NCBI GenBank assembly: GCA_019310965.1 | Contig: JAFDDG010000009.1 | Location: 1 to 64,000 of the forward strand | DNA: 64,000 nucleotides | Direction of reading: 5' to 3' | From: Deltaproteobacteria bacterium | Lineage (GTDB): Bacteria; Myxococcota_A; UBA9160; SMWR01 | Part shown: in pieces, positions 1,155 through 63,459 of the stretch | Layout: every line of letters starts with the position of its first letter | How positions within the stretch are numbered: the first letter of the stretch is position 1 | Made by a program: the position numbers and the translations under genes | Notes under the pieces: model-generated | Told to the model about the DNA's origin: nothing | Databases searched by the model: none | What the model saw: the letters and a program-made list of their open reading frames with translations, nothing else

Positions 1155-2081
1155 TTGACCGAGCAGAACGGACCGGTACTCGTCACGGGGGCCAACGGCC
1201 ACCTCGGCCGGCGCTTGCTGCGTCGCCTGGTCGGCGAGCGCGAGCTCGTCGCAGTGGTGCGCTCGGAGCGCGCCCGTGCCCAGATCGAAGCCCTCGCGCT
1301 CACGCCAGCACCACGCATCGCAGTGCTCGAATACGGCGACGCGGCGGCACTGGGGACGGCGGCACGCGGTTGCAGCCACGCAGCCCATCTCGTCGGCATC
1401 CTGAAGGAAGGCTCGAACAGCAGCTACACCGCCGCTCACGAAGACTCCGCGGCAGCGCTGGCAGAAGCGGCCGACGCTGCCGGTCTCGCGCGGGTCGTGC
1501 TGCTCAGCATCCTGGGCTCGCGCCCGGCTTCGAGCAACGCCTGCCTCGCCTCGAAGGGACGCAGCGAGACGATCCTCCGCGACGCCAGGACACCGCTGCT
1601 CGTGTTGCGGGTGCCGATGGTGCTGGGCGAAGGCGACTTCGCTTCGCGCGCCCTGGCCGGGCAGGCGGGTGCGCCCTTTGCCGCACTGGTGCGCGGCGGC
1701 GCGAGCCTCGAGCAGCCGATCTACGCCGGGGACGTGGTCGATGCCATCGTCGCGGGGATCACGCGAGAGGGACTCGACGCTGTCGCCCTCGATCTGGCCG
1801 GACCCGAGAGCCTCTCTCGCCGCGCCCTCCTCGCGCGCGCCGTCGCCGTAGTCGACGGCACAATGCCAAAGATCCTGCCCGTCCCTTTCTTTTTTAACCG
1901 GGCGGCGGCATGGCTCTTCGAGAGACTTCTGTCCGATCCACCGCTCACCCGCGCGATGCTCGGCGTGCTCGACCACGACGACAGCGTCGACGTACGCCCG
2001 GCCTGCACAAGGCTCGGCATCGAGCTCACCACCCTCGACGAGACGCTGCGCCGCTGCATCCCAAGGGAGTCCTCGCAATGA
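1155..2081 (+). CDS. NAD(P)-binding atypical SDR / NmrA-like epimerase-reductase
   Basis: 308 residues with an N-terminal Rossmann motif TGANGHLGRR (~10-19), typical of the atypical short-chain dehydrogenases (NmrA/complex I NDUFA9-like) that act on sugars, lipids or as redox sensors. The start is a TTG at 1155 with a good AGGAG five bases upstream; no ATG fits the conserved N-terminus. The stop overlaps the next gene's start (ATGA at 2078-2081), so the two are translationally coupled. The active-site Tyr-Lys pair of classical SDRs is not obvious. Substrate cannot be inferred; family call is firm. Confidence 0.85.
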   Translation: MTEQNGPVLVTGANGHLGRRLLRRLVGERELVAVVRSERARAQIEALALTPAPRIAVLEYGDAAALGTAARGCSHAAHLVGILKEGSNSSYTAAHEDSAAALAEAADAAGLARVVLLSILGSRPASSNACLASKGRSETILRDARTPLLVLRVPMVLGEGDFASRALAGQAGAPFAALVRGGASLEQPIYAGDVVDAIVAGITREGLDAVALDLAGPESLSRRALLARAVAVVDGTMPKILPVPFFFNRAAAWLFERLLSDPPLTRAMLGVLDHDDSVDVRPACTRLGIELTTLDETLRRCIPRESSQ

Positions 2082-3091
2082 ACCCCGACGAATCACCTCG
2101 ACACTCCGCAGACGAAGCTCGAAGCGAGGGGCGGCCCAACGAAGCCAGGAAAGCCGGTCCGCTACAGAGGCTGTTGCCCTGGGCGATCACTCTCGCCTGC
2201 TTCACCTATCTCTACTTGCAGATCGACGCACAGGCCGTGCGACAGGGCCAGGGTGCCATCCCCTTCCTGCTGGGTGTCTTTGCGGACGTCTCGTGGGTGA
2301 GCTGGCTGGTGCTGATGATCCCCTACTCGGCGTTCTTTTTCCTGGTGGATTCGCTCGTCGTCTGGCGCATCGTCAACTGGTTCAACGCAAGAGTGCCGTA
2401 CGCGGACATCCTGCCGATTCGCGGCAGCGCCTACATCATTTCGATCCTGAACGAACAGGTCGGCAAGGGCGTAATGGCCGTCTACCTGAACCGCCGCGAC
2501 GGCGTACCGGGCTGGCAGGTGGGTTCGAGCATGCTCTTCATCATGTTCTGCGAATTCTTCTACCTGCTCTTCTGGGCGAACGTGGGCTACGCCCTGCGCG
2601 GCGACCAGCTGCCGGAGATTTTCGCCTGGATTCCCTGGGTGGCCGGCGGCGCGTGCGCGTTCTTCGCGCTCTGGGTGCTCTACTTCGGCGGCACCATCGC
2701 ACCCGGCCACGGCCTGCGCGACCGGCAGATCCTGCACGCCTTCCGCCAGGCACGCTGGTGGCAGTACCTCGTCGTAATCGCGCTGCGCTCGCCGGCGCTG
2801 CTGGCGGCCGTCGGCGTCTATACCCTGTCCCTGCGGCTTTTCGGACTCGAAGCCCAGTGGCTCGACATGCTGGGCTACCTGCCGGTCATCTTCTTCGGCG
2901 CTGCGGTACCGGGACCCTTCCGGGCCGTCGCCATCGCGCTCTGGTCGTTCATCTACGCTGAGAATCCCGGGCAGGCCACGGCCTTCGGCCTGGTGCAACA
3001 CAACTTCTTCATCTTCTTCAACGCAGCCATCGGGTTGCTCTTTCTCAGGCGCGCGAATCGCGAGCTCTTCGGCCCCGCACGAGCCACCTGA
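2078..3091 (+). CDS. Polytopic membrane protein, possibly lysylphosphatidylglycerol synthase TM/UPF0104-like
   Basis: 337 residues from the ATG that overlaps the preceding stop. A polar, charged N-terminal ~30 residues is followed by about seven or eight hydrophobic segments, with aromatic-rich helices and a conserved-looking internal 'NEQVGKG' stretch. The architecture resembles the lysylphosphatidylglycerol synthase transmembrane / AglD-like flippase family, but I see no decisive motif, so this is a family suggestion only. Coupling to the upstream reductase suggests a joint envelope-lipid role. The last 47 bp overlap the convergent CDP-alcohol phosphatidyltransferase gene. Confidence 0.75.
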   Translation: MNPDESPRHSADEARSEGRPNEARKAGPLQRLLPWAITLACFTYLYLQIDAQAVRQGQGAIPFLLGVFADVSWVSWLVLMIPYSAFFFLVDSLVVWRIVNWFNARVPYADILPIRGSAYIISILNEQVGKGVMAVYLNRRDGVPGWQVGSSMLFIMFCEFFYLLFWANVGYALRGDQLPEIFAWIPWVAGGACAFFALWVLYFGGTIAPGHGLRDRQILHAFRQARWWQYLVVIALRSPALLAAVGVYTLSLRLFGLEAQWLDMLGYLPVIFFGAAVPGPFRAVAIALWSFIYAENPGQATAFGLVQHNFFIFFNAAIGLLFLRRANRELFGPARAT

Positions 3092-3605
3092 AGCGGTCGA
3101 GCATCGAGAGCAACGTCGCCACGACGAGCAGCCAGCCGAGGGCCAGCACGAGCCCGGGCCCGGGCCAGCCGAGCCCCAACGTGTCGCGCATGATCGGCAC
3201 CGCCACGATCGCGTAATAGGCGATGCCATTCCAGCGACCGAGCCTGCTCGGCCGCAGACCCTGTGCCGCGAAGGCCCTGGAATCGGCGGCGTACTGCACG
3301 AACGCCAGAACGATCAGGGGCGCCAGCGCGGCGGGCAACACCCCGCCGCTCGCGAGAGCGCAACAACCCACGCTGACAAAGGTGGCGTCGGCCGCGTGAT
3401 CGATCGCGCCGCCGAGGGGGGTCGCCTCGCCGTAGCGCCGCGCCACCCAACCATCAGCAAAGTCGCTGCCGACGGCCAGCCAGAAAATCACCGCCGCGAA
3501 CTCCGCTCGTTCTGACACGATCGCCCAGCCGAATGGCGGCACCAGTAACAGGCGCGGCAACGTCAGCGCCGTAGCTCGGGTCCAGAGCGTGCGCCTGGCA
3601 GACAT
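3045..3605 (-). CDS. CDP-alcohol phosphatidyltransferase family protein
   Basis: 186-residue membrane enzyme of the CDP-OH-P family, which transfers a phosphatidyl group from CDP-diacylglycerol (or a related CDP-lipid) to an alcohol, producing phospholipids such as PG, PI or cardiolipin. The complete signature D-x2-D-G-x2-A-R-x8-G-x3-D-x3-D is visible starting at the 'SDFADGWVAR' segment (~48-57) and ending at 'IDHAAD'. Four to six hydrophobic helices surround it. The acceptor alcohol is not predictable. It is convergent with, and overlaps by 47 bp, the membrane protein gene ending at 3091. Confidence 0.88.
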   Translation of the reverse strand: MSARRTLWTRATALTLPRLLLVPPFGWAIVSERAEFAAVIFWLAVGSDFADGWVARRYGEATPLGGAIDHAADATFVSVGCCALASGGVLPAALAPLIVLAFVQYAADSRAFAAQGLRPSRLGRWNGIAYYAIVAVPIMRDTLGLGWPGPGLVLALGWLLVVATLLSMLDRFRWLVRGRRARDSRA

Positions 3606-3648
3606 CGAGTGACGACAGTAACAGCGCCCACGCTACTCTGCAGCTCCC

Positions 3649-4008
3649 ATGACACCTCGAGCCCACGCGCTCTTCGGAGCCAATCCAACGCTGGTAGCCG
3701 CACTCGCCGCAACGCTGCTGGCTGCGGCCTGCAGCGACGACACCAAGGTCGAGACCACTGAGATGCGCGGCGAGCGGGTCTACCGCAACGTCTGTGCCAC
3801 ATGCCACGGCAGCAACCCGAACCGGGACGGCGTGACCGGACCCGCCATCGCCGACGCTTCCGAGGAGTTGCTTCGAGCCCGCGTGTTGCGCGGCGAATAC
3901 CCGCCCGGCTACACGCCCAAGCGCAACACCAGGCAGATGGTGGCGCTTCCCTACCTCGAGCCGGTGATTCCCGACCTGTCTGCCTACCTGGCATCAGTCG
4001 AGCGCTGA
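3649..4008 (+). CDS. c-type cytochrome lipoprotein
   Basis: 119 residues. A hydrophobic N-terminus ends in a lipobox (LAAAC at ~24-28), so the mature protein is probably a lipid-anchored periplasmic protein. One haem-binding motif CATCH follows (~49-53), with a candidate distal ligand Met in 'RQMVALPYL' near residue 98, i.e. a class I monohaem cytochrome c. It probably carries electrons for a membrane oxidoreductase. The best local partner is the PuuD-like membrane protein encoded convergently at 4079-4777: in PuuD itself the urate-oxidase-like membrane domain is fused to a cytochrome c domain. Confidence 0.9.
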   Translation: MTPRAHALFGANPTLVAALAATLLAAACSDDTKVETTEMRGERVYRNVCATCHGSNPNRDGVTGPAIADASEELLRARVLRGEYPPGYTPKRNTRQMVALPYLEPVIPDLSAYLASVER

Positions 4009-4018
4009 CACCAAGCGA

Positions 4019-4056
4019 AAACCGGGTGCGCGCCCGCCAGGACACGCACCCGGTTT
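4019..4056. terminator. Bidirectional intrinsic terminator
   Basis: A perfect 12-bp inverted repeat, AAACCGGGTGCG / CGCACCCGGTTT, separated by 14 nt, lies in the 70-bp gap between two convergent genes. The A/T ends of the arms provide a short U tract in both directions, so it can end transcription of the cytochrome gene (+) and of the PuuD-like gene (-). Confidence 0.8.
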
Positions 4057-4078
4057 CGTGCGAAGCGAAAGACTCGGG

Positions 4079-4777
4079 TCAGATCAGGAACATCTGCGCA
4101 AGCATCAACACCGCGGTGAGGACGACACCGGCGTGGATGGTGCCCGACACCGTCGTGAGCGGCTTCTGGCTGGCGGCACCGGGACCGATCAGACCGTTGA
4201 TCTCGACCAGCGCGATCACGATGAGCGCGGCGATCCAGTAGGTCTGCACGCCGTCGCCGACATCGGCACCGCGGGCCAGCGAAGGCAGGTGGCTCGCTGC
4301 CGCCATGAAGAAGAGCATCGGGATCGAAAAGAGCGTGTTGGTGCGCGAGGCCATGCCGGCTTTTCCGCCCGCCGCCGCGGCCGCCGGATTGGGCTCGGCG
4401 CCACCCGCAACCTTGTTGGCATTCTCGATCACGATTTTCTGCGCGGGCCAGATGACGAACCAGACATTCGCCCACATCAGCGTGCCCATCGCACCGCCGG
4501 TCAGAATGCGCGTGAAGTAGCCGGACGTCAGGGGCACGCCGCCGTGAAGCTTCATGGCCACGATCAACCAGCCGGTGAGGAAAGTGAACATCGCGCCCCA
4601 ACGGAACCACCACAGTGCGTTTGGCACGAGTTCGCGGGTCATCGCGCCCTTTGCCGTAGCACCCAGCTCAGTGCCAAAGAATGGCGTCTGAATGAAGTTG
4701 AAGTAGTAGAGCACCCCGATCCAGGTAATGCCCGCCAAGAAGTGGAACCAGCGCAGAACGAATTCTGCCACCTCCAT
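4079..4777 (-). CDS. PuuD-like (urate oxidase N-terminal domain) membrane protein
   Basis: 232 residues with several transmembrane helices rich in Trp and His (for example 'RWFHFLAGITWIGVLYYFN' near the start and 'LMWANVWFVIWPAQK' in the middle), matching the membrane domain of PuuD-type urate hydroxylase (urate_ox_N). The start is the ATG at 4777, preceded by AGGAGG; an earlier in-frame ATG at 4828 lacks such a site. The family's fused C-terminal cytochrome c is absent here, but a stand-alone cytochrome c lies next door. No other purine catabolic genes are in the window, so urate as substrate is not supported; the redox-membrane role is inference. Confidence 0.82.
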   Translation of the reverse strand: MEVAEFVLRWFHFLAGITWIGVLYYFNFIQTPFFGTELGATAKGAMTRELVPNALWWFRWGAMFTFLTGWLIVAMKLHGGVPLTSGYFTRILTGGAMGTLMWANVWFVIWPAQKIVIENANKVAGGAEPNPAAAAAGGKAGMASRTNTLFSIPMLFFMAAASHLPSLARGADVGDGVQTYWIAALIVIALVEINGLIGPGAASQKPLTTVSGTIHAGVVLTAVLMLAQMFLI

Positions 4778-49153: not shown

Positions 49154-49639
49154 ATGGCAGGAAACGATGCCGCGTCGGACTTGAACCTCAACCTGACGGA
49201 GCTGCTGCCCGAGCACTTCGAGCGCTTCTTCGCGTTCTTTCGGCCGGGGCACACGGAGGGCGTTCTGCCCTCGCGGGTGAAAGAGCTGGCGCGGCTCAAG
49301 ATCGCGGAGCTCAACGGCTGCGATACCTGAAGCTTCGCCCGGTACGCGTCGGCGACGCGTCAAGGACTCGGCGAAGAGACGATTGCACAGATCTATCGGG
49401 CGGAAGCGGAACGTGAGCTCGAGCCCCGAGATGCCCTGGCCGTACGCTTCGCAGAGAAGCTCGCCACGGACTTCCGCAGCGTGGATACCGCCTTCAAGGC
49501 CGAGCTGCGCGAGCACTTCGAGCCGGCGGAGATCGCAGAGCTGGGACTGATGATCGGCCAGTATCTCGCGCTCGGGCGCATGCTGGTGATCGCCGGAGGC
49601 GGCAAGAGCGCCTGCGAGATCTACGTCCCCGACGCCTGA
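49154..49639 (+). CDS. AhpD-like carboxymuconolactone decarboxylase-family selenoprotein (CxxU)
   Basis: 161 residues, reading UGA at codon 59 as selenocysteine. 'RVKELARLKIAELNGCDT' leads into U59, giving C56-x-x-U59 where CMD/AhpD relatives have C-x-x-C. The frame stays open and conserved for another 102 codons ('FARYASATRQGLGEE', 'LATDFRSVD', 'EHFEPAEIAELGLMIGQYLALGR') to the TGA at 49637-49639. A bSECIS-like hairpin follows the UGA. It is probably a thiol peroxidase-like or disulfide-reducing enzyme of the cytoplasm. A conventional annotation would stop at 49330. Confidence 0.88.
49328..49376 (+). promoter_or_regulatory. bSECIS-like hairpin and selenocysteine UGA
   Basis: The UGA is at 49328-49330. 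A seven-base perfect stem ACGCGTC/GACGCGT (49344-49350 with 49354-49360) closes a GGC loop whose first G is 21 bases after the UGA. A second stem, CTTCGCC/GGCGAAG (49333-49339 with 49370-49376), brackets it. Distance and loop G fit the bacterial SECIS rule for SelB recruitment. Confidence 0.8.
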
Positions 49640-61530: not shown

Positions 61531-61980
61531 ATGTCTCACCTCGGCCGCACCCGCGGCCTGCCGCTCGTGATCACGCTGCTCGCCTGCGCGGGCAGCCCGC
61601 CGACCGACATCGGCGATTTCGCCGCGCGGCTCGCCCCGTGTCCGAGTTCGCCGAACTGTGTTTCCAGCGATGACGAGAGCGAGCGGCACCACATCGCCGC
61701 GCTCGGCTTCGGCGGCGATCCGCTGGAGGCGTGGCACAGGGCGCTCGCCGCGGTAGCAGCTCTGCCGCGAACACAGATCCTTCGAGAATACTCGGGCTAC
61801 TTGCACGCCCAGTGCACGAGCGCTCTGCTGCGCTACCGCGACGACCTGGAGCTTCAGCTGCGACCCGATCGCGGAGAGATCGCCGTGCGCTCGGCATCGC
61901 GCATCGGGTACAGCGATCTGGGAGTGAACCGCGCCCGGATCGAAGCCTTGCGAGCCGCCTTCGGCGCCGGCGGCTCCTAG
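61531..61980 (+). CDS. DUF1499 lipoprotein-like protein
   Basis: 149 residues. A signal-like segment ends in 'LLACAGS', a probable lipobox. The DUF1499 features are clear: 'LAPCPSSPNCVSS' near residue 33 and 'SRIGYSDLGVNRARIEALR' at the end. The family is found in bacteria, algae and plants, and its role is unknown. No close coupling to neighbours; it is convergent with the histone-fold gene. Confidence 0.9.
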   Translation: MSHLGRTRGLPLVITLLACAGSPPTDIGDFAARLAPCPSSPNCVSSDDESERHHIAALGFGGDPLEAWHRALAAVAALPRTQILREYSGYLHAQCTSALLRYRDDLELQLRPDRGEIAVRSASRIGYSDLGVNRARIEALRAAFGAGGS

Positions 61981-62647: not shown

Positions 62648-62866
62648 ATGCACATCGAAATCACCTACTGCGGCGCTTGAAACTTCCTGCCTCAGGCCTC
62701 CAGTCTGGCGGCCGCGATCCAGGACTCCTTCGACGTCAAGGCCAAGCTCATCCGAGGCGACAACGGCATCTTCGATGTCAGCGTCGATGGAAAGCTCATC
62801 TACTCGAAGCACGAGACGGGGCGCTTCCCGGAGACCGTGGAGATCCTCGACGGGCTGCGCAGCTGA
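62648..62866 (+). CDS. SelW-like (Rdx family) selenoprotein, CxxU
   Basis: 72 residues. The redox motif is C8-G-A-U11, with U11 encoded by the UGA at 62678-62680. The rest matches the SelT/SelW/SelH domain: 'IEITYC' before it, 'NFLPQASSLAAAI' after, 'GIFDVSVDGKLIYSK' and 'GRFPETVEILDGLR' at the end, reaching the stop at 62864-62866. A thioredoxin-like fold with a selenenyl thiol role is expected. A conventional caller would reject this gene because of the early stop. ATG 62648 has no strong ribosome site. Confidence 0.9.
62678..62713 (+). promoter_or_regulatory. bSECIS-like hairpin and selenocysteine UGA
   Basis: The UGA is at 62678-62680. GGCC-T-CCA (62695-62702) pairs with TGG-C-GGCC (62706-62713), with a T-C mismatch and a GTC loop at 62703-62705. 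The loop G is 23 bases after the UGA, inside the bacterial SECIS range. Confidence 0.65.
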
Positions 62867-63057
62867 GATATCCGCGTTGTCGGCGCTCAGTCCGCCCCGT
62901 GTAGCGGAGACTGTTCACCTGCCGCGACGACACCGGTGGCACCCGCGAGCAGCTCCACGGACCGCGGCCTGTCGGCCCGAAGTTCATGATACGCTGCGCG
63001 CCTCGCAGCGAGCCCCGCGGCGGCCCGCGCCGTGCGCGTGGCAGAGGTCTTGCCGAC

Positions 63058-63459
63058 ATGGCCGAGCGCAGCTTCTTTGCCGTCTCCACGCTCCTGTGGC
63101 TGGGATACGGCGTGTACTGCTTCTTCCAACCCGGCGTGCTGGCCGAAATGGCCGGTGTCATGGGCTCGACGCCAACCGCCACCACGGAGCTGCGCGCCAT
63201 GTACGGCGGCGCCCAGGCGGGCATCGGCCTGCTCTGTGCCGGCGCCTTTGCCCAGGCGACCTTGCGACGTCCGGCGCTGCTGGCGCTGCTCTTCATCGTG
63301 GGCGGCCTGGGCACTACGCGCCTGCTCGGCGCGCTGCTCGACGGCTCGTTCACCAGCTACACATTCTCGGGCCTCGGCTTCGAGTGGGCAACGATCGCTG
63401 TGGCGGCGTGGCTGCTGTCGCGAACGAGCACGCCGCCCGCGGCCACATTCAGCTCCTGA
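63058..63459 (+). CDS. DUF4345 membrane protein
   Basis: 133 residues from ATG 63058. Four helices and the DUF4345 pattern 'ERSFFAVSTLLWLGYGVYCFF' in part, 'ELRAMYGGAQAGIGLLC' and 'LGTTRLLGALLDGSF' are present. The family is widespread and of unknown function. No operon partner is clear. Confidence 0.85.
   Translation: MAERSFFAVSTLLWLGYGVYCFFQPGVLAEMAGVMGSTPTATTELRAMYGGAQAGIGLLCAGAFAQATLRRPALLALLFIVGGLGTTRLLGALLDGSFTSYTFSGLGFEWATIAVAAWLLSRTSTPPAATFSS

Follow-up and report, generated by a model that had tools for sequence, protein, structure and literature searches.

A SelW-like (Rdx family) selenoprotein gene with a conserved in-frame UGA and a bacterial SECIS hairpin under RNA-level constraint

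We found a SelW-like (Rdx family) selenoprotein gene of 72 residues near the end of the window (the whole 64,000-nt stretch of DNA analysed here, from a draft genome of a Deltaproteobacteria bacterium). The gene is located on the plus strand at 62648..62866, with its ATG at 62648 and a terminal TGA at 62864-62866. Translation with TGA read as U gives MHIEITYCGAUNFLPQASSLAAAIQDSFDVKAKLIRGDNGIFDVSVDGKLIYSKHETGRFPETVEILDGLRS. Direct reading of the sequence places the in-frame UGA (TGA, 62678-62680) at residue 11 of a C-x-x-U motif; this C-G-A-U redox motif spans 62669..62680, with Cys8 encoded by TGC at 62669-62671. The coordinates and the motif given in the original prediction were right. The whole explanation, a SelW-like selenoprotein with SECIS/SelB-dependent selenocysteine (Sec) at position 11 that would act as a thiol/disulfide oxidoreductase, is almost certainly correct. 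Our computations established the reading frame, the family assignment, the genes for decoding, the conservation of both the UGA and the RNA element, and the predicted fold.

The 72-residue protein matches the Pfam Rdx profile (PF10262) with 66.8 bits, well above the curated cut-off of 22.6. The match covers profile positions 1-73 of 74 and residues 2-71, and it spans both sides of the UGA, as anticipated by the claim that an Rdx C-terminal half follows this codon. A search of the whole genome with the same profile returned exactly one match, the selW-like gene (58.5 bits, one TGA inside). The protein also scored 52.8 bits against NCBIfam TIGR02174 (SelT/SelW/SelH, cut-off 34.2). Its score against the equivalog model NF041051 (SelTWH_Campy) was 83.3 bits, slightly below the cut-off of 88, which is expected since the gene belongs to another lineage. 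An AlphaFold2 model built from an alignment of 30 loci (pLDDT 95.2) predicts the thioredoxin-like fold of SelW. The top PDB matches of this model are the bacterial SelW-related structures 2FA8 (E 1.3e-7), 2OBK, 2OJL, 3DEX and 2P0G, followed by MIEN1 and mouse SelW (2NPB, TM 0.69). A plain sequence search recovered the same PDB chains as the structure comparison.

The UGA codon is conserved far outside this genome. In a comparison of 98 genomes (its own and relatives), a TGA-bearing orthologue was found in 71, with the TGA at the same codon and sequence identity down to ~41%. The TGA is also present in all 16 named relatives (Deltaproteobacteria, Planctomycetota, Beta- and Gammaproteobacteria, Rokuibacteriota, a Thermoleophilia bacterium and Dehalococcoidales). 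Altogether it stands at the same codon in 84 distinct sequences, which span many genera and several phyla, and I5, C8, residue 11 and A17 are invariant among them. No Cys orthologue of the SelW-like gene was found in the 98 genomes. Matches lacking the TGA are deep paralogues (~29-43% identity) with a CxxC motif in different surroundings; the UGA aligns with TGC or TGT in the 19 Cys paralogues. A Cys codon turned into TGA, by decay into a pseudogene or two disused fragments or by a sequencing error, was considered, since TGA is one base away from TGC and TGT and the assembly is a draft. That the TGA persists across lineages effectively refutes this reading; further arguments against it are the residues conserved to either side of the UGA, the RNA-level constraint on the SECIS and the complete Sec machinery (the last two described below), and we regard it as extremely improbable. 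The presence of selA follows the selenoprotein gene: selA was detected in 69 of the 71 genomes with TGA-bearing SelW and in 18 of the 27 without (Fisher p = 1e-4). One of the two selA-negative genomes, G050, has a tRNA-Sec in an assembly that is 85% complete, so selA is probably just missing from that assembly. The other is a distant genome, G097, with a TGA-bearing SelW homologue (L107, G097:C94:7299-8096); selA was not detected in it and its best tRNA-Sec match was a tRNA-Ser. This stray case could be a gap in the draft assembly, contamination, or a gene stranded after loss of the Sec trait.

A bacterial SECIS hairpin is located immediately 3' of the UGA, at 62695..62713 (plus strand, GGCC-U-CC [AGUCU] GG-C-GGCC). 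The stem has one U/C mismatch and the loop carries G62703 and U62704. The loop G had been predicted 23 nt after the UGA, and G62703 does lie 23 nt after the A of this codon. The published bacterial consensus asks for 16-37 nt from UGA to loop, an upper stem of 4-16 bp and a minimum free energy of at most -7.5 kcal/mol (PMC13188914); the hairpin falls within it, with ~22 nt to the loop, six pairs plus the U/C mismatch and -10.9 to -13.6 kcal/mol. The folding energy of the single hairpin is no better than chance (z = -0.98 and -0.80; 32 of 200 shuffled sequences fold as well), although better-than-chance folding is not a formal criterion of the SECIS model. In a scan of the 64-kb window it ranks only about fifth among 30 UGA frames of the CxxU/UxxC type with a hairpin. 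The better-scoring hairpins (at 61568, 45070 and others) were set aside because by eye they lie in low-complexity, apparently non-coding frames. Only the SelW-like and AhpD-like (see below) frames of the 30 looked like real proteins by eye. In this GC-rich DNA the hairpin alone is unconvincing; its support comes from comparison (covariation and codon bias).

The comparison bears out the SECIS-like hairpin at the RNA level. The loop GU is kept in 80 of the 84 sequences, and 78 have the loop AGTCT, AGTTT or GGTCT; in the AGUCU loop the A and the closing U pair, with the G-U inside. Serine at codon +8 after the UGA is encoded by AGT in 68 of 69 cases, whereas in the rest of these genes AGT makes up only 8 of 251 Ser codons (3%; p ~1e-100). 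Glycine at this codon is encoded by GGT in 10 of 10 (p ~2e-10). These p-values assume independent sequences; relatives do not satisfy that assumption, although several phyla are represented among the lineages. The codon bias indicates RNA-level selection on the loop G-U. Counting from the U of UGA, the stem pair 21-33 joins two third codon positions, mostly of Ala codons. It is paired in all 84 sequences (C-G 70, U-A 6, G-C 5, G-U 2, U-G 1). The pair 24-30 is C-G in 82 and G-C in 2. For 21-33, U-A is found in planctomycetes and, separately, in one genus of the organism's own family; for 24-30, G-C is found in the Thermoleophilia bacterium and one family of its own order. The changes at both pairs are independent compensatory changes in several lineages. 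Of the 1431 column pairs tested, 21-33 covaries most strongly among those that are at least 95% paired. When the 3' arm was slid by 1-6 columns, pairing fell from 0.96 to 0.55 or less. The 19 Cys paralogues form at most four of the six stem pairs and all lack the loop GU. This constraint on the RNA, like the retention of the UGA across 71 genomes, goes beyond what was originally predicted.

The genome encodes the machinery to decode UGA as selenocysteine. We detected a tRNA-Sec (selC, 70.5 bits) with anticodon UCA (ARAGORN: tca), and selA (515 bits), selB (276 bits) and selD (256 bits), the last three all over their cut-offs. SelB consists of an EF-Tu-type GTPase and SelB winged-helix domains. 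Its gene (G000:C9:14500-19500, 1212-3236, minus strand) adjoins a serS-like frame (3139-4644 of the same segment, minus strand), a putative seryl-tRNA synthetase by reading of the sequence, and is directly downstream of it. Seryl-tRNA synthetase is the enzyme that loads serine onto tRNA-Sec. The selD gene (G000:C76:14500-19500, 1918-4140, minus strand) is of the Cys type and has an N-terminal pyridine-nucleotide-disulphide oxidoreductase domain fused to it. Such Cys-type NADH-dehydrogenase/SelD fusions are known in marine bacteria (PMC2398784). Together, tRNA-Sec, selA, selB and selD support the prediction that this organism decodes UGA as selenocysteine, and the predicted gene stands because the Rdx profile matches across the UGA and the Sec machinery is present. 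The frame would also be open if UGA were recoded as another amino acid such as Trp or Cys. The selW-like gene itself terminates with TGA, its internal UGA occupies the CxxC/CxxU position and is followed by a bacterial SECIS, and the four decoding genes are in place; a recoded UGA is accordingly the least probable reading of all, and one with next to no likelihood.

We infer that selenocysteine is inserted in the organism itself. The hairpin just 3' of the UGA, through its AGUCU loop, would recruit SelB with Sec-tRNA(Sec), and selenocysteine would be placed at position 11 in place of termination. In the small thioredoxin-like protein, the Cys8-x-x-Sec11 pair may then form and resolve a selenenylsulfide. 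The product would be a cytosolic thiol/disulfide oxidoreductase, probably with glutathione or thioredoxin as partners. A true selenoprotein with a role other than general thiol redox, such as serving one particular enzyme as its partner or carrying selenium or a metal, is unlikely but deserves some weight. In favour of such a role, Cys never replaces Sec in this clade and the gene neighbourhood offers no clue. The flanking genes, upstream DUF1499 (61531..61980, plus strand, PF07386) and downstream DUF4345 (62986..63459, plus strand, PF14248), are context only; their order around selW is kept only in the congener among the compared loci (many with ~300 bases of flank), and no conserved operon hinting at function was found beyond the genus in these loci. 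A CxxU motif within a thioredoxin-like fold suggests redox chemistry, and a thiol/disulfide oxidoreductase remains the preferred assignment. It is conceivable, if rather doubtful, that SelW is an obligate selenoprotein in this bacterial class, its orthologue being present in the Sec form or absent and never in a Cys form. If so, the SelW reaction would be beyond cysteine and SelW would be one of the genes maintaining the Sec-decoding trait in this class.

A second CxxU gene had been predicted in the window and proved to be real. This AhpD/CMD-like gene (49154..49639, plus strand) encodes 161 residues with a C-D-T-U motif (TGA at 49328-49330) and matches PF02627 with 33.5 bits (cut-off 23). Its orthologues in the order show 62-80% identity and almost all have one TGA. 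A 7-bp hairpin with a GGC loop was seen ~20 nt downstream of this TGA. AhpD/CMD-like selenoproteins of the same CxxU redox family are known in bacteria (PMC1088965, PMC2398784); they differ in fold and family from the SelW-like proteins. Two further CMD-domain genes in the same genome each have a C-F-Y-U-T motif whose U is an in-frame TGA and are likely selenoprotein genes (L141, G000:C152:3326-3505, minus strand; L142, G000:C98:6673-6840, plus strand). Together with the SelW-like and AhpD-like genes, this brings the likely selenoprotein genes of the genome to at least four.

In 2005, bacterial SelW-like proteins with CxxU already outnumbered every other family of the Sargasso Sea selenoproteome (PMC1088965), and they ranked first again, with 427 genes, in the Global Ocean Sampling survey (PMC2398784). 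SelW genes can escape annotation altogether (PMC4607533). The gene described here shares with known bacterial SelW-like selenoproteins (PF10262; TIGR02174, NF041051) the length, the N-terminal CxxU, the Rdx match across the UGA, the SECIS right after the UGA and the (here predicted) thioredoxin-like fold, with no substantive difference (PMC1088965, PMC2398784, PMC13188914). The Cys-type SelW-related structures 2FA8, 2OBK, 2OKA, 2P0G and 3DEX have the same fold (TM-score ~0.8-0.9, ~26-34% identity), but they are longer chains, listed with a CXXC motif (PMC3527542), where the gene at 62648-62866 has a predicted Sec. Mouse SelW (2NPB) and MIEN1 (2LJK) share the family, the fold and the CxxU/CxxC site at ~22-28% identity. 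In eukaryotic selenoprotein genes the SECIS is located in the 3' UTR (PMC1088965), whereas here it directly follows the UGA. The gene is therefore a sound, well-supported addition to a long-described bacterial family and leaves the picture of bacterial selenoproteins unchanged. The 84 aligned SECIS-bearing SelW genes with their clear compensatory changes make a useful training set. For the organism, a lineage known from draft genomes is supported as one that decodes UGA as selenocysteine, and gene calls that end at a UGA before a SECIS consequently need re-examination across its order.
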